Origin: a virus
DNA: 38,238 bases
IMG/VR virus record: IMGVR_UViG_3300042691_011780
Coordinates: 1 to 38,238 of that record
Strand: one strand, 5' to 3'
The first letter of the stretch is position 1. Every line of letters starts with the position of its first letter. The position numbers and the translations under genes are program-made. The notes beneath the pieces were generated by a model that was not told the DNA's origin, searched no databases, and worked only from the letters and a program-made list of their open reading frames with translations. Positions 4,668-38,238 of this stretch are shown here, in pieces.

Positions 4668-5114
4668 TCAGAAGGAATCTCCTGAGTCGAAATCTTCGAT
4701 GCTCACGGCAGGCGCGCCCGGTTTCAGCGAGGCGTCGAGCGTGTTACGGCGGCGGTGAATGATTTGGCGCGCAGCGTTCTCCAGCGCGACGTCGGCAGGA
4801 CGCGGCGCGAACGGCTTCCCGGTGCGGTCGAGCTTCGGTTCCTTCACCGAGGCGTACCACTCGATGCTTCGCTCGCCGAGCTGACCGAGCGGCATCCCGT
4901 TGTTTTTTCCGAAGTGAACCACGACGGAGTCAGGATCGTCGACCACAAAGGTCGGCTGCGGAATCGGAGGACGCGCGGCGAACGCAGCGCCAGATGCGGA
5001 AGCGGGCGAGGCATCGCTGCGATCGAGCGGTGGCGTGGAGGCATTGGGTTTGGAGAGCGCTTCACGAATCTCGCGAAGCTTGCTGATGATGATGTCGAAC
5101 TGATCGGTTGTCAT
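4668..5114 (-). CDS. DUF3820-like/QSregVF-type small protein with low-complexity N-half
   Basis: The start is the ATG at 5112-5114 overlapping the endolysin stop (ATGA), giving 148 residues; longer versions read into the endolysin. The C-terminal half carries VHFGKNNGMPLGQLGERSIEWY, the signature of the small domain found in DUF3820 proteins and at the C-terminus of some exonuclease-type proteins (F-G-K-x-x-G-x-P-L). The N-terminal half is Ala/Ser/Pro-rich. It directly precedes the RecT-like gene and may act with DNA-processing enzymes. Function unproven. Confidence 0.65.
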   Translation of the reverse strand: MTTDQFDIIISKLREIREALSKPNASTPPLDRSDASPASASGAAFAARPPIPQPTFVVDDPDSVVVHFGKNNGMPLGQLGERSIEWYASVKEPKLDRTGKPFAPRPADVALENAARQIIHRRRNTLDASLKPGAPAVSIEDFDSGDSF

Positions 5115-5491
5115 TTGATGTTCCTCTGCACTTTTGCTGCGTACTGGATGGTTTGTGGTTTCCTGTGTCCGCTCGGTCCGCCGTTGTGGATGCGAGCGAG
5201 AGTAGTGGTGTCGCCTGCTGCCCAAGCCTGCGGCGCGTAGCGACGGAGGTAGGCAGAGGCGACCTTTATGGAATAAGAGAGGTCGGCGCAATCTTCGTAG
5301 CGGCCAGAGACGCGGGCGTCCTGCCAGTACGAGCGATGAATCTGGAGCGGACCGAGAGCGCGCCCGTTATCACCGATGATCGGACCGCGCTTGCCGCCGG
5401 TCTCGACGAGGTGAACCGCGCGCCAGAACGACTCCGGTGGCGCGGCGTGGAGGCTGGCTCCGAGCGCGAGACAAAGAGCGGCGCGGATCAC
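5111..5491 (-). CDS. Secreted lysozyme/transglycosylase-like endolysin
   Basis: The GTG start at 5489-5491 overlaps the preceding stop and gives a 126-residue protein. It starts with a Sec-type signal (IRAALCLALGASLHA, cleavage likely after residue 16). The mature part has a lysozyme/SLT-like core: E30 in HLVETGG as likely catalytic glutamate, GDNGRALGPLQIHRSYW, then YSIKVASAYLRRYAPQAW and ARIHNGGPSG. It would cut peptidoglycan in the periplasm after export by the host Sec pathway. Unusually, it sits in the recombination/early block, about 15 kb from the holin-like genes. Confidence 0.75.
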   Translation of the reverse strand: MIRAALCLALGASLHAAPPESFWRAVHLVETGGKRGPIIGDNGRALGPLQIHRSYWQDARVSGRYEDCADLSYSIKVASAYLRRYAPQAWAAGDTTTLARIHNGGPSGHRKPQTIQYAAKVQRNIK

Positions 5492-5697
5492 GACTCGTCC
5501 TCCTGCTCGTCGTCGTCTTCGTCTTCCTCGCACGGCTCGTCAGCCAACGCAGCTTGAAAGGCAGCGTGAGCCGCGTGCTCGGCAGCACGCTTCGCAGCCC
5601 ATCTCGCCTCGTCGGCAGCGGTCCACGGGTTCTGCTCGGCGTGCCGCGCGCTCATCTCGGCGAACGCATCGCGGGCGGAAATCGGTTGCTGACTCAC
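5488..5697 (-). CDS. Small acidic-tailed protein, 69 aa
   Basis: GTG start, GTGA overlap with the upstream stop, and a GAGGTGG ribosome binding site. The product is Ala-rich and helical, with a strongly acidic C-terminus (EPCEEDEDDDEQEDES) resembling DNA-mimic-like tails. No family recognised. The acidic tail would suit binding to a basic host protein, but that is speculation. Confidence 0.65.
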   Translation of the reverse strand: MSQQPISARDAFAEMSARHAEQNPWTAADEARWAAKRAAEHAAHAAFQAALADEPCEEDEDDDEQEDES

Positions 5698-5936
5698 GAC
5701 GCCACCTCCCGACCGCGCAAACCGGAAAGCGCCTCGGCGACCTCGACCTCGCGAGCCCGCAGAGCTTGGTCGATCCTGACCACGGCCATCGTGATATCGT
5801 TGGAGAGACGCCGAGCGCGCGCGCAGCTACTGACGGAATTCCTGTGCTTGTTGTACTCTCGCACCAGCGCGTTCCGCAGACTGTTGAGGAAGTCCGAGGA
5901 GCACTCGGCGGGAATCTGGATCGTGGTCTTTTTCAT
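5694..5936 (-). CDS. Small helical protein, 80 aa
   Basis: The start MKKTTIQIPAEC is taken at ATG 5934-5936, which follows an A/C-rich leader rather than an SD. The protein is helical, with a basic centre (LRNALVREYNKHRNSVSSCARARRLSND) and a C-terminus LRAREVEVAEALSGLRGREVAS. No family recognised. It heads the early operon that leads through the endolysin. Confidence 0.65.
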   Translation of the reverse strand: MKKTTIQIPAECSSDFLNSLRNALVREYNKHRNSVSSCARARRLSNDITMAVVRIDQALRAREVEVAEALSGLRGREVAS

Positions 5937-5975
5937 TGTGGTCTTTGTTTTTGGGTTTTGTCTAAGGACTAAATG

Positions 5976-5995
5976 GAGCCCTCCGTAGAGGGCTC
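5976..5995 (-). promoter_or_regulatory. UNCG-tetraloop hairpin (copy A) in an A/C-rich leader
   Basis: On the minus strand this reads GAGCCCTC-TACG-GAGGGCTC, an eight-base-pair stem closed by a UNCG-type tetraloop. It lies between two genes and is followed by CATTTAG and an A/C-rich leader to the ATG at 5936. Related copies occur at 32179 and 33642. No U-tract follows on the minus strand. Confidence 0.75.
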
Positions 5996-6004
5996 GATTA
6001 ATCC

Positions 6005-6439
6005 TCAAGCCGCGACGGCCACGTTCGCATCAGCCAAGTCGCGGAGGAAGTACCGCGTATCGTCGTCGAGCGCTTCATTCTTGGAGGCGGCGAGGAAGGC
6101 GTCGCGCTTGCTGATGGACGGGTTGCGGAAGCGGACGACCGCCAGAGCCATCGCGATATCAGACTTCACCTCGTCTTCAAGGAGCTCGAAGGTCTTCTGG
6201 TCGAGCCGCTCTTTCCAGCCGAGCAGCGCGCCCGTTTCGAAGTTCGAGCGCCCGATAGAGCAGACCAGCACCGCGTCGCTCATCAGCGCCGGACGGCTGA
6301 ACATATGGCGCAGGAACGACTGGCGGATCAGGTTGGCGACGGTGACGAGGTTGGTCGCCTCATCCGGGATTTCGAGGGCGGCATCCTTAACGGTGCCGTA
6401 GGTGAAGCGGACGGTTCGGGTTTTGATCGTGGAGGTCAT
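6005..6439 (-). CDS. Unknown early-region protein, 144 aa
   Basis: The 144-residue product starts MTSTIKTRTVRFTYGTVKD. It contains a probable helix-rich core (VANLIRQSFLRHMF; WKERLDQKTFELLEDEVKSDIAMALAVVRFR) and a C-terminus ISKRDAFLAASKNEALDDDTRYFLRDL. No family recognised. It is the first gene after the virion operon and lies downstream of the 19-bp motif region, so it probably starts a separately regulated transcript. Initiation lacks an SD (GTAACCTATG). Confidence 0.65.
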   Translation of the reverse strand: MTSTIKTRTVRFTYGTVKDAALEIPDEATNLVTVANLIRQSFLRHMFSRPALMSDAVLVCSIGRSNFETGALLGWKERLDQKTFELLEDEVKSDIAMALAVVRFRNPSISKRDAFLAASKNEALDDDTRYFLRDLADANVAVAA

Positions 6440-6553
6440 AGGTTACATCGATCAGCTTGGCCCTCGTCGAGCAATTAACAAGCTTATTTTTCTGACCTCT
6501 CCTAACCTCCTGCAAACCAACGACTTGCAGAAACAAAAAGTTTCGATAAACAA
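6440..6553 (-). promoter_or_regulatory. Probable promoter/operator region with dyad and shared 19-bp motif
   Basis: This 114-base gene-free stretch is AT-rich. It holds a dyad (CTGCAA at 6510-6515 and TTGCAG at 6525-6530) overlapping a 19-bp motif at 6497-6515. That motif recurs with 17/19 identity at 34678-34696, upstream of another unit. Next to it are a GAAAC-TTTTT-GTTTC stem-loop and AAAAATAAGCTTG. No convincing sigma-70 promoter is visible, so a host- or phage-specific promoter or operator is inferred. Confidence 0.5.
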
Positions 6554-6880
6554 CTAAACATCTACCGCATCCGCGAAGGCATTGCTGCCGAAATCACAGG
6601 AAACCGGCTCGGCTTTTGCAGCGACGTAGAGCTGTGCGAGAATGTCCGTCGACTCGAGCGCCGGGTTTCCGACGTACTGATCAAACTTGTCGCCGGTCAG
6701 CGTGAGCTTGGCGATCCACGGAGTGAGTGGCGTCTTGCCATTCTCAGCCGCAGTCGCGTCGACGTACAGCGCGAACAGCGCGCCAGCCTCTCTGGCTTGC
6801 CTGTCCCACCGATGCGTAATCAGGCGCGTGTAATTTCCAGAGACTCCGCTCGGGAGCGTGAATAGTTTTTGGAAAGCCAT
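6554..6880 (-). CDS. Tail-tip-associated unknown protein, 108 aa
   Basis: The 108-residue product starts MAFQKLFTLPSGVSGNYTRLITHRWDRQ, a beginning of the type seen in small proteins encoded right after tail-tip genes. The rest is mixed alpha/beta without catalytic motifs. It lies three bases after the gpJ-like gene and ends the virion operon. A minor virion or receptor-related role is inferred from position. Confidence 0.6.
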   Translation of the reverse strand: MAFQKLFTLPSGVSGNYTRLITHRWDRQAREAGALFALYVDATAAENGKTPLTPWIAKLTLTGDKFDQYVGNPALESTDILAQLYVAAKAEPVSCDFGSNAFADAVDV

Positions 6881-6883
6881 AGG

Positions 6884-9800
6884 TTAAACAAAATAATCCA
6901 TCACGCCGATCGAGAATCGATGCGGTCCCGATGGGACGTTTGTTCCATCTGAAGTCGCGAGCGTAAAGTAAGCCACCGAGGACGAGTTGCCTGTCGCGTC
7001 GAAGTCGTACGTGCCGATGACGTTAACGTCGTTGCTGCATTGAATCCAACCGGCATCCGGCTTCGCGTTGAAACCACGCGCCGAAATGTTGAGCGTGATG
7101 ACTTCGGTCGCCGCTGTTCCGGCTAGAGTCCAGACGTCGGTAGTTTCGAAGCGCACGTTCACCTGTCTCGTAGATGCGCCGCCTCCGGTCTTGAGTCCAG
7201 TCGTGGTTACGTCGTCGGAGTTGTACCGCGAGATTGTTCCGATGGGTCGCTTGATGAGCGATGGCGATCCGGTCACCAGTCCTAGCGATGCCCAACTCGA
7301 TGCGATGCCAGAGCGTGTAAGCACGCGCACGAAGCCGTACCCGCCTGCCGTTCCATTGACCTCGTAGAAATACACAACGCGCGATTGCGCGCTGGTCATT
7401 GGGAAACTGTACTGGGTTTGATTCCCGGCTGGAAACCAAGCAATGCCCGGAGCAGTAGGACTGTTCGTCGTAGCAATCTTTGCCTCAACATTTGCGATAT
7501 CGCTTTGAGTAGGCGCAGTTATTGCGACACCGATAGCATACATTGGCACTTGTCCTTGGAATATCGGTTCCGCATATTCACCAGTTGTGTACGCGACTGT
7601 CGGAGCGGTGGGCGGAGTTGTGTAGTTTGGAGCAGACCGGGAAAGCGTTGGCGAAATTGCGGAGGCAACCTCAAAAGTTGAAACCGCGCGCGCTGCAAAC
7701 TCATACGTTTGTCCCGGCGTTAGGTCGTCGATTGAAACGGCAACCGAACCGCTCGTAAGTTGGTTGCCGACTTGCCAGTCACTCGCGCTTGACCGTCGAT
7801 AAAGGATTGTCAGCAGCACTCCTCCGGTCGGCATAGCAGGAGCCGTGAGATTGATCCGAGCGAGAGTTGTGCCATCGCTGGCGAGATATCCCGACTCACT
7901 CACGAACGTCGGCGCATTCGGCGTAGCGGGCGCGGTCTGGTTGGTATCTGCGGTTGCGATGAACGTCGGGACTGCGGTTACGCGCGAACTGAAACCCGAC
8001 ACGTTTTCAAGGAAGTCGTAGGCATTGACCCAGTAATAATAGGTGGTGCCGAGAACGACGTCGGTGTCGACGAAGCGCGAAGCACGAACCTCAGCAACCT
8101 TGTTTGTGTTTGCGTTAGGAGGAGTGACTCCGGTCGTGTTGCGGTAGACTCCGTACTCCGAAAGATCCGCCTCGGTGCTATCGTTCCAGTCCAACGAAAC
8201 CGCTTTGCCTGTTCCCACTACCACGGCGAGACCAGTCGGCGTCGCTGGTGCGGACGTATCCTTTGGAGCCATCCGCGAAAGCGCCGATGAAACCGCAGAG
8301 AGATAGCCGAAGCTGGAGACGCCTTGCGCTGCGAACTCGTAGGTGATGCCGGGCGCAAGACCCTCGACCGATACCGTGATGCTTCCGGTGTCGATTTGAG
8401 AGACGAGCATCCACTCGCTCGCTCCAGCCATTCGGAATAGAATGTTGAGCGCTACCGCTCCGGTCGGCTTAACCGGAGCAAGGATATTGATGCGTGCAAA
8501 CGCCGTGCCGTCCGACGAAATGTAAGTTGTCTCTGTCGAAAACGTCGGCGCACTCGGAGTTGCAGGAACCGTTGGATCAACCGAGCCTCCGCTGATGTAG
8601 GTCGGAACAGCAGACACGCGATTCGAGAAACCGGAATAGTTCGCGAGCGCGTCAACCGCATTGACCCAGTAATAATAAGTCGTGCCGATCGTTACTTCCG
8701 TGTCGACGAACCGCGAACCACCAGCGTTCGCGATCTTGTTCGTTGCGATGTCTGCGGGTGTGATTCCCGTGGTGTTCCGATAGACTCCGTAGGACAGAAA
8801 ATCTGCCTCGGCGTTATCGATCCAATCCAACGACACAGCTTGTCCGGTCCCGACGAAGGCTGTTAACCCAGACGGATCGGCAGGCGGAGTCGTGTCCTTC
8901 AAGACCGTAACGCTCGCAGCGATGTAAGTGCTGGAAGTTCCGAAGTAGGATTGCCCGAAGAGGCGAACGTCGTAGGTCGTTCCGATCCGTACATCAGAGG
9001 AGATGTAATCCAGCGTCTGATTTCCTCCGACCTTTGACCAAGTAAGATACGTCGTCGAGTTGCCCGGTTTGTATTCGATGATTACCTGACCGCCGGACTG
9101 GATGAATTCCTCGGCGGGAGCTGACCACGAAACCTTGATCCGTGGTAGCGCGGTGCCGTCCGCTTGAATTAGCTGCGTCGTTCCATCAGCGACTAGCGCG
9201 AGGTTCGTCGGCGCTCCGAGCGAAAAAGGATTGGGTAGCGTTGTCGTCGGCGTCGTGTCCACCACGATCTCGTCGCTGACATTCCAGTCGTAGACGGTCG
9301 ACGCCGTCTCTCGCATCGTCATCTCGATCGCCAGCTGAGGTGGCTGTCCATCCGAGACGAAGTTCCAGTCGATGACCTCGAAGACCTTGTTCGTCCATCC
9401 AAACTTCGACAGCGTCACCATCACAGTGTCACCCGCACGGACTTGCATCGCGTCGAGGCGGAAGCGCGCCGTGAAGGTAATCTCCTGCCGCCCTCTTAGC
9501 AGTTCGATGCGCGCCAATCGCTGCGCGCAGGAGCTTGAAGTCGTCATCGGGAGGACGACGTCTCGCCAATACCGCACGCCGTTGTCCTGACTCAGAAGCG
9601 TCGCCGAAGTTGCAGGCGGGAAGTCGGTCGGTTGCCATTCGCTCTTCTCAGAAACGAAGACGCCTTTCACCGCATTGACCCGGTCACGCGCCGAGGTCTT
9701 GGTCTGCACGCTGAGAGGTCCGGCAAAGTCGGAGTCGGTAAGCGTCACCGTAGGGATGCGGTAACCCGCAGCATACGGGATGATCTTGCCACCTGAGTAG

Positions 9801-16144: not shown

Positions 16145-16741
16145 TCAGCGCGTAGGCGGCGGCGCCTCCGAGACAGCGTCGCTGTAGCGATAGTGATGCA
16201 GCACCTTCGAGATGTGCATCTCTCCGGTCGCATCCATCACCAGATGCTTGGCCCACGCCCAGTCCTCGCCGTAGTTCGATGCCGGGAACCGGACGCGCCT
16301 CGCCATATCTCCACGCCACGCGCATACGTGCCACGCGCTGCGTTTAAACGACGGCTGCTTGAACGCCTCGTTTTGGTGCCTAAGAGAGAACGAGCAGATC
16401 GCCTCGACTCCGTTGACCACAGCCAGCTGGTCAAAGGTGATGACCGATGTCCTAGGCGTTGCGACCGCGATCGTGTCCGTGAGCAAACGAACGTATTCTG
16501 GCGCTACCCAGTCATCATCATCGCAGAATGCCACGAACTGACCTCGGGACATCTGTACGAGCGCGTCCCGCTTTTCGCCGATGGTCCGCATCCGGTTGTC
16601 GAGGAAACTCAGAACCTCGACTTTCTGCGGCTGCTCCAGCTGTGCGATCTGGGTCTGTAACTCATCGATCAGCGGCAGAAGATGCGAGGCGATGCGGCGA
16701 GGCGTCGCCGGGATCAGGATTGAGAGAGCTGGGATTTCCAT
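16145..16741 (-). CDS. GT-A (GT2-like) glycosyltransferase in the virion operon
   Basis: This 198-residue enzyme starts MEIPALSILIPATPRR. The nucleotide-sugar site is shown by FLDNRMRTIGEKRDALVQMSRGQFVAFCDDDDW, where the acidic run CDDDD (about residues 73-77) is the DxD-type metal site. The downstream NYGEDWAWAKHLV is the usual acceptor-side ED motif. It would transfer a sugar from a nucleotide donor to an acceptor not identified here: virion protein, DNA, or a product of the neighbouring two-domain enzyme. Its start overlaps the end of that enzyme by 28 bases. Confidence 0.8.
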   Translation of the reverse strand: MEIPALSILIPATPRRIASHLLPLIDELQTQIAQLEQPQKVEVLSFLDNRMRTIGEKRDALVQMSRGQFVAFCDDDDWVAPEYVRLLTDTIAVATPRTSVITFDQLAVVNGVEAICSFSLRHQNEAFKQPSFKRSAWHVCAWRGDMARRVRFPASNYGEDWAWAKHLVMDATGEMHISKVLHHYRYSDAVSEAPPPTR

Positions 16742-18447
16742 TGAGGTGCGTCAGGGTTGCGGCTGCGAAACAGGGCTTCTCCAGCGGTGTAGCGAGCCTG
16801 CTGGTTGTTGTGGCGGTAGGTCGCGTCCATCGGCGCTTTGCCGAAACAAGGATGGCAGTGCTCGAAGGTGATCCAAGACCGGGCGTCGATGACCACCTTG
16901 TCGCGCCCGGCGCGATAGGAAAACTCGTTGTCCGAGAACACGGACTCGTAGCCTTCGTGGAAGACCTCCCGTCCCTGTTGCTCGTATCGAGCGCGAGACA
17001 GGATCGCCATACAGAGGAGGTCATCCTTGCGGTGCCCGTCTGAGACGGCGATCACGACTGGCTCCTTCTTGAGATCGATGCCATCGCAGGCGTTGAGTAG
17101 CATCTGGTCCCAGCCGCGAACCGGCATCCAGTCATCGGAGAGCTGCACCAGAAGCTCGCCTCCCGCCATCCGAGCGGCGCCGTTCCAAGCTGACACGCAA
17201 CTCTGCTTCGGACTCAGGTAGGTCAGGAACTGTTTGCCCATCTCCACCGAGGTAGCGTCGTCGAGGTCGATAGCGAAGATGTGCTCGATTCGAGTCGGGT
17301 CGCTGGCGTAGTTGAGCCAAGCCTCTCGCGTCTGGAATGCCTTCGAGCTTCGATTCCGCGTAGCGTGCAGCAGGCTGATCTTCGGAGCCACGCCCGCGTG
17401 ATACTGCCATTGCGCCAGATCCGCCGCAGCTTTGTTCCCGCTGGCGCGACAGGCTCGGGCATAGAGGTCGTAACCGGCCCAGCCGTACCACTTGACTTCG
17501 TGCGTCCACGGTCGGTCCTTCGGCAGCGGCTCTCGGAGCGATGCCATCCGGTCCGCCCAGTACTTCGCCTTGTCGTATTCCTTGAACTCGAAGTTCAGCA
17601 GGATCATCGCTGCGATCGCCTCACGGCACCAAGGGTAAATCCCGTGCGCCTCCATCAGCCAGAGGTTCGCGTCGCGTCTCGACGAACTGAGCTTCGCCAA
17701 ATTGAGCAGCGTCTCGTAACGGAAGGCTGGCTGGAGATTCGGGAACGCCAGCGCGATCTTCCCAAACTCGATGGCGGCTTCCCTATTCTGAGAGCAGAAA
17801 TGTTCCTGATGGATGTAGAAGTATTGGGTCGCTGCCTCCTTCACGGAGTGCGACAGGATGCGGAGGTTCCGGCGCCGGTTCTCCTTCTTCACCTCGATAG
17901 GAGCGTGCAGCCAGACCGGCTCCTCCCAGTCTTCGTGCTTATCTCCCGGCATCAACAGGAAGTTTTCGTGAACCGAGTGATACCACTTCCGACCCTTCTG
18001 GAAGAAGTCGCGGGCAATGGCTCGCTCCCGGTAGAGCTTCTTGCCGGTGCCCTGCACATCGTAGTAGCAGCGGACCATTGCCAGATCGGAACCCGCCTGC
18101 TCCAGCCTGTGCCGGAACGCCTTCGCATCTCCGACGAACTTATCATCGCAGTCGCACCAAATGAGCCATTCGCCATCGCCATTCTGGAACGCGAGATTTC
18201 GCGCGGCAGCAAAATCATCCACGTGGTCCCAGCCTTCTGCGCCGATGCCGTTGCGGTATTCGCTGACGACGCAGGCGATGTCGCGTTCGCGGCACCATAG
18301 CTGCGCGAGCCCGATCGTGTCGTCCGGCTTTAGGCTTCCGACAGCCCGCGTGATCGACAGTTGATCGAAGGTTCCCTCGAACGAGTTCAGCATCCGAACG
18401 ATGTACTGCTCCTCGTTCCCGCAGATGACACAGAGTGAAACGCGCAT
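16714..18447 (-). CDS. Two-domain GT-A glycosyltransferase with helical middle
   Basis: This 577-residue protein has an N-terminal GT2-like domain (residues 1-170; MRVSLCVICGNEEQYIVRML; DDFAAARNLAF; WLIWCDCDD as DxD site; RGRKWYHSVHENF-like acceptor motif). A helical TPR-like middle follows (about 210-350). A second GT domain (about 365-550) has PKISLLHATRN, NGAARMAGGELLVQLSDDW and FEHCHPCFG. Two catalytic centres suggest a disaccharide or repeating sugar addition. It is the first gene after the capsid terminator, with an 18-base leader and no SD. Confidence 0.8.
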   Translation of the reverse strand: MRVSLCVICGNEEQYIVRMLNSFEGTFDQLSITRAVGSLKPDDTIGLAQLWCRERDIACVVSEYRNGIGAEGWDHVDDFAAARNLAFQNGDGEWLIWCDCDDKFVGDAKAFRHRLEQAGSDLAMVRCYYDVQGTGKKLYRERAIARDFFQKGRKWYHSVHENFLLMPGDKHEDWEEPVWLHAPIEVKKENRRRNLRILSHSVKEAATQYFYIHQEHFCSQNREAAIEFGKIALAFPNLQPAFRYETLLNLAKLSSSRRDANLWLMEAHGIYPWCREAIAAMILLNFEFKEYDKAKYWADRMASLREPLPKDRPWTHEVKWYGWAGYDLYARACRASGNKAAADLAQWQYHAGVAPKISLLHATRNRSSKAFQTREAWLNYASDPTRIEHIFAIDLDDATSVEMGKQFLTYLSPKQSCVSAWNGAARMAGGELLVQLSDDWMPVRGWDQMLLNACDGIDLKKEPVVIAVSDGHRKDDLLCMAILSRARYEQQGREVFHEGYESVFSDNEFSYRAGRDKVVIDARSWITFEHCHPCFGKAPMDATYRHNNQQARYTAGEALFRSRNPDAPQWKSQLSQS

Positions 18448-30187: not shown

Positions 30188-31984
30188 CTATTGGGCCACC
30201 TCTTTAGGCGGAACGTAGCGGAGGACGTTCGCGATGGTCGCCATACAAAGTAACATCGCGCTCGTATCGAGACCGTGGTTGGCAGCGTTGTGCTTGACCT
30301 CCCGCCACTCCCATACGCCTGACCGAATCTCGATCTTCGCCTCGCCTTTCAGATGTTCGAGGTAGAGCGGATTCACATCGGCTGGCAATTCCCACCTCAG
30401 GTCGCCCTTGTTCTCCAGCGCCGTCTGCAGGACGTCCTTGAAGTAGTCGCCAGAGAAATTGTAGAAGTAGGTATCGCCTCCTCGGAAGTCCGATACGTGC
30501 GGGTCGCTGAACGGGAAGTTGATCACCTGTCCGCTGGCGTCGTCCCTGAGCGCCCAAGTCCGGCGCCCGTATCCGCGCATCGACCGCCAGCCGAATTCGG
30601 CTGAGTCCTGATCTACGTCGGCTGGCCGGTAGCCTCGATCCTGCGCCACGCATTGATCCGCCACCTTGTACTGCCGCTGCAGGAGGCGGAGACCGGCGCG
30701 CGTATCGACGCGCCCGAAATAAAGCTGACGGTAGCGAGGGCGCGGCTCAGTCGAGAAGGCTCCGATCTCGCACCACCAGTGATCGAGCTGGCGGTCGATC
30801 GCCATAAAACGGATCACCTCCTCTGGCACCGGCTGACCCTTGTCGTAATCGGCGACGCTGTAATCACCCTTCGGAACAAATACGTTGAGCACGCGCCTTT
30901 CCATCAGCCACGGCTTCGCCTCGCGCTTCGTGCGAAACTCCTGCATAGGAGTCGTGTCTCCGACGCGGATAGCGTGATTGTGCGCTTCGCAGAATTCCTC
31001 GACGAGCAGTTTCATCGGTCGGCTGACCAACGCCTCGATTCTGAACGATACCAGTTCTTTCGTAGCTCTGGGATTGGTCGCGACGAAGCGCCCGGTCCTG
31101 CGCCAGTCGGCGCGCGTCTTCTCCTCGTCTGGCGATTCGTGCCCGCAATGAGAGCAGCGAAAGCGGCAAGTCTCGACCGCACGCTGGATGTCGAAGGTGT
31201 CATCCTCGCGCTTGGCCGACTTGTCCCAGACGACGCCTCCGACGACGTCGCGCCCGTCGCGCTTGAGAAATGAGATTTCGTGCAGCTTGTGACAGGAGGG
31301 ACATTCCGCCATCCACTCCCGCTGGTCTCCGCTCCGGTAGGATAGGTCTTCCACGTTCCCTGTCTCGGCATCCATCACCGCCGCCTGCGAGACGTTGTAC
31401 ACCTTGCTGCGCCCGACCTCCTCGAACTTCGAGACGCGCGCCAGAGCGTGACCGTAGACGTCCTGCCACTTTGGGAGCCAAATCTCGTCGTTGACTTTGT
31501 AACGGATCGACTGGCTCTGCTGCGTAGAAATGTTCGCCGGATTAACCGTCAGGAAAAAGCCGCCGAAGTAAATCTCGGTCTGCGTTCTCTGCGGTCCCAT
31601 CTTTGGCAGCAATTTGGCGACAGGCTTGCACCGTTCTAGCAGAGGGTTGAGCCGCGACTTGCAATGCCGCTCCACCATCTCGTCGGTCTGCATAGTCCAA
31701 GAGATTGGACCGGCATCGTTGCAGATAAGCCACGGAATCCAGATATCGGCGATCAAGGTGCCGCCGATCTGCACCGCTTTGCGGAAATGCACACGCCTGA
31801 TCATCGGGTCTTGGAGCGCGTCGAAGATCGGCATCAGCCAAGGCGTGATCCTCGCGTTGAACGGTCCGCCGGTCGCGTAGGATTCCGGCAGGGTAATGTG
31901 CCGCCGCGCCCACTCGTAGATTGGCGCGCGATCTGGCTTCGGGAAAAAGAATCTGCGCCCGAGTCGCGCCTCTACCTCATTCAT
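30188..31984 (-). CDS. GpA-type terminase large subunit
   Basis: This 598-residue packaging motor/nuclease starts MNEVEARLGRRFFF at ATG 31982-31984 overlapping the previous stop; a longer start would enter the small gene. Features are the gpA N-terminus (APIYEWARRHITLPE), a Walker A-like KAVQIGGT (69-76), YKVNDEIWLPKW as Walker B region, a paired-Cys zinc motif CPSC...CSHC, and the C-terminal nuclease half beginning MAIDRQLDHWW. It cuts concatemers and powers DNA into the prohead. Confidence 0.92.
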   Translation of the reverse strand: MNEVEARLGRRFFFPKPDRAPIYEWARRHITLPESYATGGPFNARITPWLMPIFDALQDPMIRRVHFRKAVQIGGTLIADIWIPWLICNDAGPISWTMQTDEMVERHCKSRLNPLLERCKPVAKLLPKMGPQRTQTEIYFGGFFLTVNPANISTQQSQSIRYKVNDEIWLPKWQDVYGHALARVSKFEEVGRSKVYNVSQAAVMDAETGNVEDLSYRSGDQREWMAECPSCHKLHEISFLKRDGRDVVGGVVWDKSAKREDDTFDIQRAVETCRFRCSHCGHESPDEEKTRADWRRTGRFVATNPRATKELVSFRIEALVSRPMKLLVEEFCEAHNHAIRVGDTTPMQEFRTKREAKPWLMERRVLNVFVPKGDYSVADYDKGQPVPEEVIRFMAIDRQLDHWWCEIGAFSTEPRPRYRQLYFGRVDTRAGLRLLQRQYKVADQCVAQDRGYRPADVDQDSAEFGWRSMRGYGRRTWALRDDASGQVINFPFSDPHVSDFRGGDTYFYNFSGDYFKDVLQTALENKGDLRWELPADVNPLYLEHLKGEAKIEIRSGVWEWREVKHNAANHGLDTSAMLLCMATIANVLRYVPPKEVAQ

Positions 31985-32165
31985 TCGCAGGAGGCTGCTC
32001 TTTCTTCGGGCGTCCTCCGAGGGCGCCATTTTTCCGCGCAGCGATCGCCTTTCTTTCCGACTTCGCAGACCCTCCTCGTCGTCCGAGCAAACGTGCGACT
32101 TCAGAGATGTTGATCGCTGGCTCCTCGACTAACGGTGCCGCTTCAGTTGTGGATTGGTTCTGCAT
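31977..32165 (-). CDS. Small basic protein before terL, 62 aa
   Basis: This 62-residue protein has an acidic N-terminus and a basic C-terminus (ARLLGRRGGSAKSERKAIAARKNGALGGRPKK). The VARLLGRRGG segment is helix-turn-helix-like, and similar small ARKNGALGGRP proteins occur in plasmids and phages. Its stop overlaps the terL start. Possibly DNA-binding; function unknown. Confidence 0.65.
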   Translation of the reverse strand: MQNQSTTEAAPLVEEPAINISEVARLLGRRGGSAKSERKAIAARKNGALGGRPKKEQPPANE

Positions 32166-34715: not shown

Positions 34716-35096
34716 TCAAGCTTCTCGCATTTCTAAGCGATCGATCAGTTCCGCTTCGCTTACGGGCTTGTCGTCCCAGAGAATCCGCCCGTTTTCTGGC
34801 GAAGTGTTTTCCAGCCGCAGGCTATGAAAGCCGCACCATCTCCATCCGAGGCTCGGCGCGCCGTTCTCGATGCCTGTTCGCAGGATTGTCGCGACCTCGC
34901 CGAGCGCGATGCGCTGCATCGTGGACAGGTCCGCTCCGTTGATCTTCAGCTCGACGATCTGGAGAACCTTCCGTTCGTAGTCGCGGAAAATAAAGTCGAC
35001 GTCGAATACCGTGAACCCGCGCGCGCTGGTCAAGCGCCGCCGGACCCATCGCGAGAAATCAAGGTTACGACTCCCTGTTTGCTCCGCTCTCGTCAT
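34716..35096 (-). CDS. PD-(D/E)XK-like small nuclease-fold protein, 126 aa
   Basis: The segment VFDVDFIFRDYERKVLQIVELKING (about residues 29-53) fits the D...(D/E)xK nuclease core (D34, E49, K51). The rest is helical with WRWCGFHSLRLENTSPENGRI near the end. It might be an endonuclease acting on DNA during packaging or on host DNA. It overlaps the terS-like gene by 32 bases, so it is expressed with it. Confidence 0.6.
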   Translation of the reverse strand: MTRAEQTGSRNLDFSRWVRRRLTSARGFTVFDVDFIFRDYERKVLQIVELKINGADLSTMQRIALGEVATILRTGIENGAPSLGWRWCGFHSLRLENTSPENGRILWDDKPVSEAELIDRLEMREA

Positions 35097-35736
35097 CGTC
35101 CTGCCTGATCGTCTGCTTGATCGCTTCGTTCTGGAAGGTCGCGATGTTCGCGTTCACGACGTCGCGGATTTCGTCGAGGATCGAGCGCCCTTCTAGGTTC
35201 GCTTCCGCCGCCGTCTTGCCTGCGACGCGCGGGCCCAACTCTACTTCCAGCTTCAGCCGCAGCAGCAAGTCGAGTTTCTGCGCCAGCGTGCCGAGCATCT
35301 CGTCGACGACTTCTGACGCGATGAGCGCGCCTGACTCGCGCGCGATTTTCATATCCCGCAGCTTGATCTCCCGCTGCATAAGCTGCGCTTTGAGATCGGC
35401 GAGGGTCTGCGTCGCGACGTCCTTGCCGATCAGCTTCTCCGCGCAGAAGCGCTGCCAAGCTGCGAGGTTCTCTCGCCTGCCACCCGGCTCCCGCTTCGGC
35501 GCCTCGTTCGGATACTTCGCGCGCGCATCGTAGATCGCACGCCGGTTGAGGCCTAGTTCTTTAGCGAGAGCACTGGTATCTTTTACCCACTCGCCATCGC
35601 CGATTTCGGCTTCCCATCTCTCCATCGCCTTTTGCTCGGAGATGGAGAGCGTCTTACCGGCGCGCAGCTTCGCTACGATATTCGAGATGTTCTGCCGCGC
35701 GATCTTACTGGCTGCTTGCGAAACGTCTTCAGCCAT
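35065..35736 (-). CDS. Terminase small subunit-like (Nu1-type) protein
   Basis: The start is MAEDVSQAASKIARQN at ATG 35734-35736, sharing TAATG with the glycosyltransferase stop. The 223-residue protein has a winged-HTH-like segment (WVKDTSALAKELGLNRRAIYDARAKYP, about 50-76) for cos/pac binding, a helical middle, and a C-terminal region ending in acidic Asp/Glu residues. These are Nu1/gp1-like features. It lies about 3 kb from terL, which is unusual. Confidence 0.7.
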   Translation of the reverse strand: MAEDVSQAASKIARQNISNIVAKLRAGKTLSISEQKAMERWEAEIGDGEWVKDTSALAKELGLNRRAIYDARAKYPNEAPKREPGGRRENLAAWQRFCAEKLIGKDVATQTLADLKAQLMQREIKLRDMKIARESGALIASEVVDEMLGTLAQKLDLLLRLKLEVELGPRVAGKTAAEANLEGRSILDEIRDVVNANIATFQNEAIKQTIRQDDDESGANRES

Positions 35737-36704
35737 TAAAGGAAAGCCGCGCAAACCTTGTCGGACACAGAAGCTGGCAGATGCTCAACTAATGTTCTGC
35801 GTCCGTTCTCGATGATTTCAGCTGACGGCTGTCTTTCGAGCAGCGCAGCGAGATGCGCGCCGTCTCTAGCCGCTAGGCAGTTGAAGCCATCTCGCAATTC
35901 TCCTTTGTTGTCCTTGGTCCACTTGGTGTTTACGATCAACGCAGCACCACCATCCCAAGCCTCCAAAAAGGTGTACTGAGTTCCGCATCCGTCGTCTTTG
36001 ATCGCTGACATATCCACCACCCAGTTCGCCGAAGCTGCTAGTCTTGCACCAGCTCCCTCTGTTCGCTCGAACTTCCCATAATAGTTATTCCTCCAGTTCG
36101 GGAACCGCGTGTTGATTTTGTGAAAGGTGTAGATCGTGTTTTCTGCTCCGTAAATGCAGCAGCGCCGGTTCGCTGGTACGATGGTATTAGCTTCTGCGAT
36201 GAGATCGGTATGCTTGTCCCAGTCTAGCCTCGAAAACGCTACGGCATTTCGACTCGGGTTTCGTGTCGGGTTGGACGGCGCATAGGGATGCGGAATGAAA
36301 CTCGAAGCTAAACCCTTCCCAGACAAAACCGCTCCCATCGTTTTCCTGATTGCGAAAATATGGTTCGCCTTTCGGAATACTGCGGTTCGTTCATCGTCGA
36401 GTTCCGTTGGGTCGTGCACGACGTAGGCGGCTTTTCTAGAGCGCAACACGTTAGCCGCCTCTAAATTTTTGCTGTCGAGTGCCGTAACGATCAACGCGCC
36501 CGAAAGCTCAGAAACCGCCTGAGCCGGAATGCGCTGTGTCATCACGCTACCGGAATACGGTAACAGTGTTGGAGCTAGTCTTGCGCCAACCGTGTACAAG
36601 TTGACCGTGTGACCCTGCGATTTTAGGCAGCGATACAAATGCTCGGTGAAGCTCACCCAGCCTCCGAATTTCGGCTCCGCTAAATAAAGAAGACTGAATT
36701 TCAT
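35736..36704 (-). CDS. GT-B (GT4-like) glycosyltransferase, likely DNA-base glycosyltransferase
   Basis: The start MKFSLLYLAEPKFGGW is at ATG 36702-36704, inside TAATG with the TET-like stop; longer frames run through that gene. The 322-residue enzyme has a GT-B N-terminal half (GGWVSFTEHLYRCLKSQGHTV) and a C-terminal half with AVAFSRLDWDKHTDLIAEAN and DDGCGTQYTFLEAWDGGAALIVN, the nucleotide-sugar E-x7-E-type region. Coupling to the dioxygenase predicts that it adds a sugar to the hydroxylated base in phage DNA. The donor sugar is unknown. Confidence 0.75.
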   Translation of the reverse strand: MKFSLLYLAEPKFGGWVSFTEHLYRCLKSQGHTVNLYTVGARLAPTLLPYSGSVMTQRIPAQAVSELSGALIVTALDSKNLEAANVLRSRKAAYVVHDPTELDDERTAVFRKANHIFAIRKTMGAVLSGKGLASSFIPHPYAPSNPTRNPSRNAVAFSRLDWDKHTDLIAEANTIVPANRRCCIYGAENTIYTFHKINTRFPNWRNNYYGKFERTEGAGARLAASANWVVDMSAIKDDGCGTQYTFLEAWDGGAALIVNTKWTKDNKGELRDGFNCLAARDGAHLAALLERQPSAEIIENGRRTLVEHLPASVSDKVCAAFL

Positions 36705-37537
36705 TACTTCACTTTTTGGCCGCTCAAGCGGCGGTTTTCCACTTGTTCCCGTCGCATACGCGCACGCGCGATTTCTTCCCTGAGCGGAGCGCAATTCCAC
36801 ATAGCGCGCAGCGAGTAATACACGATTGAGAACCTTCGTGCGTTTGGCTGCAGTTTCTTGATCGGAGTTACTCCGTGCAGAATAGCTTGGCCGTCGAAGT
36901 AAAAGATGCTTTTGTCGCGGACCTCGCACATCACATCGTATTCTGGCATAGCGAGGTATCCGCCTCCGATATGCCGCTTCAACACGATCATCGACGACCA
37001 GACGTCTTTGAAGTTGCCTGAGTCAAAATGATAGCAGAGCGGATTGTTGTCGTTGATGATTCCAGAGGTAAACGGAACGTCCGCTAAATGATAGTCTTGA
37101 ACTACCTTCTCTTTTGTTGTGCGGAGATGCTCGCCGTACAGCTCAGGGTTGTGCAGCGCGTAGTGCTTCGCAGCGATGGCGCCGCCCGAGAGAATCTTCG
37201 CGTGCTGTGCAGGCTGCTCAGTCGCGAAGCTGGTGATGGAGCAGAAGTCCTTTCGGATGGCGTTCCTCGGATTGTACCCGAAGATGCGGCTGGTCGTCTT
37301 GAGCCCGCTCGTCCGATAGGTCTCCTGATACTTCACCTTCGTGCAGCAATCGAACATTTCGTCGAGCGCTGCCGAGTCCTCAGTTGGTTGCACGTAGAGG
37401 CAGACAACTTTTCCAGACTCCTCGTCGACGAGTCTGAACTCGTCTTTCAACAGCGTTGAACAATCCTCCTCCTGCGCGCGCCGTTGAACGAACTCCGTTA
37501 ACTTCAACTTTCGTTTTTTAAGAACAAGAGTTTGCAT
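36704..37537 (-). CDS. TET/JBP-like 2-oxoglutarate Fe(II) dioxygenase
   Basis: This 277-residue protein has a TET/JBP-family core: YHFDSGNFKDVWSSMIVL with the H170-x-D172 iron ligands, GGGYLAMPEYDV (191-202), FYFDGQAILHGVTP with the distal His221, and ARRFSIVYYSL with Arg235 to bind 2-oxoglutarate. TET/JBP enzymes oxidise the methyl group of 5-methylcytosine or thymine; phage members act in DNA hypermodification. The N-terminal 150 residues are unassigned. It overlaps the ParB-like gene by 20 bases and shares TAATG with the glycosyltransferase. Confidence 0.8.
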   Translation of the reverse strand: MQTLVLKKRKLKLTEFVQRRAQEEDCSTLLKDEFRLVDEESGKVVCLYVQPTEDSAALDEMFDCCTKVKYQETYRTSGLKTTSRIFGYNPRNAIRKDFCSITSFATEQPAQHAKILSGGAIAAKHYALHNPELYGEHLRTTKEKVVQDYHLADVPFTSGIINDNNPLCYHFDSGNFKDVWSSMIVLKRHIGGGYLAMPEYDVMCEVRDKSIFYFDGQAILHGVTPIKKLQPNARRFSIVYYSLRAMWNCAPLREEIARARMRREQVENRRLSGQKVK

Positions 37538-38177
37538 ATTCTCGAATCGCGACCATCGCGGCGAGCGTGTTGTTTTCTAGTTCCTTGGCTTTCTTGATGA
37601 TTTCGAGCTTTCCCATAATTTCCTCGAACTCAGCCACATCCATAATCAGAACGATTTGCCGGACGGAGCTTTGCTCATAACTTTCCAGCGCTTCGTCTGG
37701 TGTCGTTCCGCGTTCTTGCCCAGCAGAAATCAGATCGTTTTTCAGCCACGATTCTAGATCGGCGCCGGAAAAACCCGTCAGGTCTAAATCGAAGTCTTGG
37801 GACTTGAGCTCGACCATAAGCTTTTTCAGCTCGTCGTGATTCGTTTCCGCGAGCTCCGCGATGCGATTATCAGCGATGAGATCCGCCCACTCTGCTGCCT
37901 CGGTTTCGTATTCTTGGAAATCAACCGGAACTAACTTCGTGCCGAGCCTCAACGCAGCCGCGAGTCGACCGTGACCCTTGACGATGAAACCCGAGCGCTT
38001 GGAAACCACGATCGGTGATCGCCAGCCTTGGGTTTTGATGATTCGCGAAAGTATTTCGATCTGCGATTCGGGATGCGTGTTCGGATTTCTCGGATTAGCG
38101 ACCAAGCCTGCCGGATCGGCGAGCTTATCGTGCGAGCAAAATACCGCAATTCCGTTAGCGTCAGCGCGAGGCTTCAT
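37518..38177 (-). CDS. ParB-like N-terminal domain protein, 219 aa
   Basis: This has a ParB/Srx-type domain: NPRNPNTHPESQIEILSRIIKTQGW, then SPIVVSKRSGFIVKGHGRLAAALRLG with the GHGR motif at 68-71, DLIADNRIAELAETNHDELKKL. Phage ParB-like proteins with this layout often pair with DNA-modifying enzymes and may guide them to sites or act as nucleotide-dependent switches. The start is set at ATG 38175-38177 after an A/C-rich leader (ACCAGAAACCAACAG). The frame stays open to the window edge, so a longer N-terminus cannot be excluded. Confidence 0.8.
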   Translation of the reverse strand: MKPRADANGIAVFCSHDKLADPAGLVANPRNPNTHPESQIEILSRIIKTQGWRSPIVVSKRSGFIVKGHGRLAAALRLGTKLVPVDFQEYETEAAEWADLIADNRIAELAETNHDELKKLMVELKSQDFDLDLTGFSGADLESWLKNDLISAGQERGTTPDEALESYEQSSVRQIVLIMDVAEFEEIMGKLEIIKKAKELENNTLAAMVAIREYANSCS

Positions 38178-38238
38178 TATTTTCTGTTGGTTTCTGGTTT
38201 TGAACGATACGCGATTTTTTGGACGAGGCGCTTCGGAC
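38178..38238 (-). other. A/C-rich leader or upstream coding at the window edge
   Basis: No separate gene is proven. The minus strand carries an A/C-rich segment like the leaders elsewhere in this genome, while the ParB-like frame and one other frame remain open to the edge. Confidence 0.4.

Follow-up and report, generated by a model that had tools for sequence, protein, structure and literature searches.

A ParB, TET/JBP dioxygenase and GT-B glycosyltransferase cassette with an exchangeable third gene, predicted to hypermodify phage DNA

Results

Organization of the cassette

The stretch of DNA analyzed here, termed the window, is the IMG/VR virus record IMGVR_UViG_3300042691_011780 (38,238 bp), the right end of which carries, on the minus strand and within positions 35736-38177, genes for a ParB-like protein, a dioxygenase and a sugar transferase. 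The first gene of this cassette (37518..38177, 219 aa) is assigned to the ParB/Srx-fold proteins by PHROG and sub-threshold Pfam matches. The second (36704..37537, 277 aa) is assigned to the TET/JBP-type Fe(II)/2-oxoglutarate (2OG) dioxygenases by a PF12851 match, its catalytic residues and a structural model, and the third (35736..36704, 322 aa) to the GT-B glycosyltransferases (GTs), as a putative DNA glycosyltransferase, by its modeled fold and its adjacency to the TET gene. The initial annotation of the window described three overlapping genes; all three open reading frames (ORFs) are present and the ParB and TET genes overlap by 20 nt, and the TET and GT genes meet at a TAATG stop-start. 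The same TAATG motif joins the GT gene to that for the terminase small subunit (35065..35736, minus strand; phrog_57, E 4.4e-4), showing that the unit continues into the terminase gene. Thus, ParB, TET, GT and terminase small subunit form one coupled unit, an extension missed by the initial annotation, the 35736-38177 span of which is otherwise real. For the transferase, the most likely start codon is the ATG at 36704 (a 322-aa product), which is preferred over a GTG at 36929 that would open a longer ORF overlapping the dioxygenase gene. Further downstream lies the gene for the terminase large subunit (30188..32029, minus strand; PF05876, 2.2e-28).

The TET/JBP dioxygenase

The dioxygenase matches Pfam PF12851 (Tet_JBP) at 43 bits against a cut-off of 34.9, and its HxD...H...R residues are H170, D172 and H221, which are assigned to metal binding, and R235, which is assigned to 2OG binding. 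All four are invariant across an alignment of 39 diverse TET relatives, in which the invariant columns are common to methylase-linked and other members. In an AlphaFold model (pLDDT 93) the double-stranded beta-helix is nearer to that of TET than to those of AlkB or FTO, the best structural matches being with TET2, CMD1, NgTET1 and CcTet (Z 18.0-20.8), with FTO and AlkB-type enzymes at 15.7 or below; Foldseek ranks the matches likewise. Both the hidden Markov model (HMM) search and the structural comparison, either of which might have excluded the 277-aa protein from the TET/JBP family, place it inside, in agreement with the intact catalytic residues and family proposed initially. Its predicted activity is oxidation of a 5-methylpyrimidine in DNA. 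No relative was found among PDB sequences by profile search with either the TET or the transferase alignment, so that both proteins are placed among known structures by fold comparison only.

The label 'queuine tRNA-ribosyltransferase' attached to phrog_6059, to which the TET family corresponds, was considered and ruled out, since HMM and fold both indicate TET. RefSeq phage records such as NC_051582.1 (gp2) likewise contain TET/JBP-family proteins labeled 'queuine tRNA-ribosyltransferase' or 'DpdA-like', which looks like propagated misannotation.

The GT-B transferase

The suggested HMM search, positive for the dioxygenase, gave no family match for the transferase in either Pfam or PHROGs, nor was a match found among annotated phages. 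Its assignment as a GT-B sugar transferase is instead upheld by the model (pLDDT 96), which has two Rossmann-like domains and matches HepE, PimA and the T4 alpha-glucosyltransferase (AGT) at Z 25-26 over ~300 of 322 residues. T4 AGT in complex with uridine diphosphate and 5-hydroxymethyluracil (hmU) DNA gives Z 25.2, and the AGT complexes give the longest alignments in the match list (312-313 of 322 residues). The sequence of T4 AGT itself matches PF11440, unlike that of the window GT, and hhalign comparison of the GT profile with T4 AGT gave a non-significant probability of 3%. A search of the whole window at E 10 for the TET-associated glycosyltransferase TAGT (PF20691), the second glucosyltransferase of phages T2 and T6 (PMC13216743), gave no match. 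On sequence criteria the transferase is a member of a family lacking Pfam, PHROG or PDB sequence matches, and is a putative DNA glycosyltransferase that would transfer its sugar to DNA.

The ParB-like protein

The ParB-like protein matches phrog_620 (ParB-like) at 1.6e-32 and phrog_498 at 5e-38; the ParB domain proposed initially is thus borne out by PHROGs, although the Pfam match (PF02195, ParB_N) scores 20 bits, below the cut-off of 26.3. A ParB HMM match precedes TET in all 110 loci having enough upstream DNA, and ParB is probably a DNA-binding or recruitment partner of the cassette enzymes. At two loci (L027 and L028), the TET cassettes of which are relatives of the window's group, the TET ORF is 362 aa long, the ORF caller gave no separate ParB gene, and an FkbM-like match lies nearby. 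Two others (L053 and L054, ~5000-9500) contain several ParB-like genes and, by clustering, an apparent second TET gene.

Conserved linkage across viral contigs

A scan of IMG/VR seeded with a TET profile identified 448 encoding stretches in 2.9 million contigs, of which 80 were kept; a second scan seeded with the GT identified at least 139 relatives, for which 84 distinct loci were examined. Among the 80 kept loci the common order is ParB-TET-X or ParB-X-TET, followed by the small and large terminase subunits, and TET adjoins GT in 65 of the 84 distinct loci of the GT-seeded scan, to be compared with the 448 TET-encoding stretches in all 2.9 million contigs. The ParB-TET-GT order is kept at two loci (L014 and L016) despite a large terminase subunit only ~24% identical to that of the window. 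The recurrence of the cassette arrangement in well over 80 viral contigs implies that it is not due to chance.

An exchangeable third slot

The four closest TET relatives (L002-L005), the TET proteins of which are 82-87% identical to that of the window, all lack the window GT. Two of them (L002 and L003) instead have in this slot a 235-aa protein with an FkbM methyltransferase domain (PF05050), a third (L004) has a TAGT scoring above the PF20691 cut-off, and the fourth (L005) encodes a weak TAGT-like protein there. In blastn comparisons of the window with these relatives, homology ends 16-34 nt ahead of the TET stop codon and returns no more than 5 nt away from the start codon of the terminase small subunit; these breakpoints define the exchangeable slot (35737..36703, minus strand), of which the small subunit gene is the downstream border. 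The third gene is, therefore, replaced gene-for-gene between conserved flanks.

A census of 131 classified loci gave 58 slots with GT-B (a count inflated by the GT-seeded scan), 29 with TAGT, 16 with FkbM-like proteins, 15 with sets of amino acid:DNA transferase, FAD oxidoreductase and kinase genes, 3 with a C5-methylase, 1 with GT-B plus TAGT, and 9 with nothing recognized. When slot labels are mapped on a 95-row TET tree, at least 28 changes are needed, compared with a mean of 39.9 and a minimum of 34 in 200 label shuffles, the count being approximate because the tree came from a quick search and has 29 weak forks and some long branches. These values imply that slot content is partly inherited, yet often changes.

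The 16 FkbM-like proteins in the TET slot (e.g. L002:1486-2193 and L039:6517-7191) are of the S-adenosylmethionine (SAM) methyltransferase type; FkbM appeared in none of the papers listed by a literature search that paired it with phage, TET and hmU, which is weak evidence of absence. The locus with two transferases (L143) has TET followed by TAGT (771-1556) and GT-B (~1559-2350), paralleling phage T6, in which AGT and TAGT occur together and yield a disaccharide. At another locus (L122:4211-6004) a 597-aa radical SAM protein with a weak TAGT-like C-terminal stretch lies just upstream of a GT-B gene without TET.

Genes indicative of the modified base

A C5-cytosine methylase (PF00145) was sought and not found in the window, which may lack ~1.5 kb; it is also absent from a circularly permuted relative record (G001) and from 31 of the 33 TET-bearing relative records. 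Conversely, 10 of the 15 large GT-B records without an adjacent TET carry both the 5-hydroxymethyldeoxyuridine (5-hmdU) DNA kinase PF18723 (helical domain) and the thymidylate-synthase homologue PF00303, neither of which occurs in any of the 33 TET-bearing records. Whole-record searches confirmed the absence of TET from 14 of these 15 records, that of L146 giving a weak match. The GT thus partners either TET or the kinase and thymidylate-synthase genes, implying two alternative sources of a hydroxymethylpyrimidine, the second of which is tied to 5-hmdU by the kinase; the thymidylate-synthase homologue would act as a dUMP hydroxymethylase.

Actinophage TET relatives sit beside an amino acid:DNA transferase and a P-loop kinase, in clusters published as a predicted thymine hypermodification system (PMC11955845). 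Neither a 5-hmdU DNA kinase nor an amino acid:DNA transferase was found among the window genes scanned, some small ORFs lying outside the scan; the window would glycosylate instead.

Genome completeness, neighboring genes and host

The permuted record G001 (38,133 bp), which contains locus L013, has homologues of most window genes, arranged in the same order around the circle but opened at another point, indicating that both are close to whole genomes. In L013, ~1.75 kb separates a replication-type gene from ParB and contains two small ORFs and a gene for a methyltransferase-like protein (PF13578); the window contig ends where L013 has this region. Five other, independent contigs (L002, L003, L004, L011 and L012) start, and the window (38178-38238) ends, within ~70 bp upstream of ParB, whereas L013 reads through; the shared ends could reflect a terminus of the genome or a site of packaging.

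Two further glycosyltransferase genes (Glycos_transf_2/GT2-type; PHROG glycosyltransferases) lie at 16145-16741 and 16714-18447 of the window, on the minus strand and immediately downstream of the gene for the major head protein, and have homologues in G001 and G044; they perhaps act in capsid glycosylation. Among 84,980 bacterial and archaeal genomes scanned to identify a host, only four distant relatives came up, and a terminase search found no close cultured phage.

Discussion

The best explanation for the combined results, which we consider likely as a whole, is that the cassette carries out post-replicative DNA hypermodification, with TET/JBP-catalyzed hydroxylation, likeliest of thymine, followed by GT-B-catalyzed glycosylation, and that the third gene serves as an exchangeable module for decoration, i.e. 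GT-B, TAGT, an FkbM-like O-methyltransferase, or an amino acid:DNA transferase/kinase set. In the proposed mechanism the dioxygenase would hydroxylate a pyrimidine C5-methyl group in phage DNA, most likely converting thymine to hmU, and the GT-B enzyme would then move a sugar from a nucleotide-sugar donor to the new hydroxyl group, giving a base-J-like 5-(glycosyloxymethyl)uracil. The probable part of ParB is to recruit these enzymes to DNA or to distribute them on it. A late timing of the modification, just ahead of packaging, is suggested by co-transcription of the cassette with the terminase. That the modified base would protect the phage DNA from host nucleases is plausible.

A glycosylated hydroxymethyl base in the phage DNA, as proposed in the initial annotation, remains the best reading of the TET/JBP and GT-B assignments. 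The identity of the hydroxylated base had been left open; we favor thymine, and hmU over 5-hydroxymethylcytosine (hmC), because the methylase is scarce and because TET-less relatives of the GT mostly lie beside a thymidylate-synthase homologue and 5-hmdU kinase genes. As judged from gene content, the likeliest product is thus glycosylated hmU rather than a modified cytosine. Some points weigh against this proposal. A C5-methylase adjoins TET at three loci (L048, L049 and L050) and is carried by two of the 33 TET-bearing records, both with TET and GT-B (G020 and G021), implying that the family is not thymine-only; the substrate could also be host-made 5-methylcytosine (5mC). About 1.5 kb beside ParB may be missing from the window, although a methylase hidden in this gap is unlikely, and many of the records are fragments. 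The structural scores of the transferase are tied between T4 AGT and cellular GT4-like enzymes and so support the GT-B fold but not a DNA specificity. More generally, the product base is predicted from genes and models.

The methylase-bearing relatives are in keeping with a cytosine pathway, in which a host methylase, or a phage methylase encoded off the contig, makes 5mC, which TET oxidizes to hmC for glycosylation. The dioxygenase model resembles TETs acting on 5mC, and a passage in PMC12730594 (citing Burke et al. 2021) describes an experimental precedent for phage TET and glycosyltransferase acting on this base. Given the lack of a methylase in the window, in G001 and in nearly all TET-bearing records, and the 5-hmdU kinase adjoining most TET-less members of the GT-B family, we regard this pathway as rather unlikely, while giving it more weight than the alternatives that follow.

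Since the fold of the transferase is common to many cellular GT4-like enzymes, and the phage has two other GT2-type genes beside that for its major capsid protein, the transferase might act away from DNA, decorating the capsid, the tail or the host surface, with TET as a chance neighbor or passenger. However, its adjacency to TET extends to phages as divergent as those with the ~24% identical terminase, most of the TET-less large records place it with 5-hmdU genes, and the other occupants of its slot include enzymes known or predicted to modify DNA (TAGT, amino acid:DNA transferase); a role off DNA is thus improbable. Eukaryotic TETs oxidize 5mC iteratively, and the strong structural match to TET2 and NgTET could also reflect a demethylase or defense eraser; such an enzyme would oxidize a host methyl mark repeatedly until it is removed, and the transferase would cap the intermediate only incidentally. 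The constant presence of a partner transferase, known or predicted to act on the hydroxymethyl group, suggests that the end product is stable, and makes an eraser very improbable indeed.

Accounts in PMC12730594 and PMC10273834 (citing Burke et al. 2021) state that phages combining a C5-methylase, TET and glycosyltransferases make glycosylated cytosine. The window cassette resembles this system in its TET/JBP dioxygenase followed by glycosyltransferase action after replication, and differs in having no phage C5-methylase; because such TET-plus-glycosyltransferase pathways are known for cytosine, it is a variant of a known pathway type. The actinophage thymine clusters (Rhodococcus phage Tonitrus, PMC11955845; Mycobacterium, Gordonia and Microbacterium phages) share with it the order of ParB then TET/JBP, upstream of the terminase, and, in most of the examples examined, lie at the left end of the genome; they employ an amino acid:DNA transferase and a kinase, in contrast with the single GT-B of the window. 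T4 AGT has the same GT-B fold, as seen via its Z score with the hmU-DNA complexes, and acts on a hydroxymethylpyrimidine in DNA, as proposed for the window GT, but is not similar to it in sequence, and T4 makes its hmC at the nucleotide level. TAGT occupies the same slot in L004, L005 and many other loci, but has a GT-A fold (PMC13216743). In kinetoplastids, JBP1/2 and the J-glucosyltransferase convert thymine via hmU to glycosylated hmU, a route that the cassette would share if the proposed substrate is correct; the likeness, between a eukaryote and a phage, is one of predicted chemistry. Judged on its gene complement, the window differs from the published systems in that no methylase was found, in its GT-B family without a profile, and in its swappable slot.

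Whether these features together amount to a base-J-like phage route, which starts from thymine after replication, uses an unclassified GT-B family and has its decoration gene swapped as a unit among near-identical phages, we regard as evenly balanced; within that proposal, swapping probably varies the epitope met by modification-dependent restriction enzymes and antiviral DNA glycosylases. The known phage DNA glycosyltransferases comprise the alpha- and beta-glucosyltransferases (GT-B) and TAGT (GT-A) (PMC13216743), to which the present GT-B family would add. With the slot fixed and both its flanks conserved, the exchange of GT-B for TAGT or FkbM-type genes opens 'decoration swapping' to direct testing; new bases are predicted from it, an O-methylated 5-hydroxymethylpyrimidine among them. 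The cassette enzymes would help in mapping or labeling hmU in DNA. If the modified base is thymine, the cassette would constitute a bacterial-virus parallel to base J. With the third gene swapped, the chemical disguises worn against bacterial defenses may differ between related phages.

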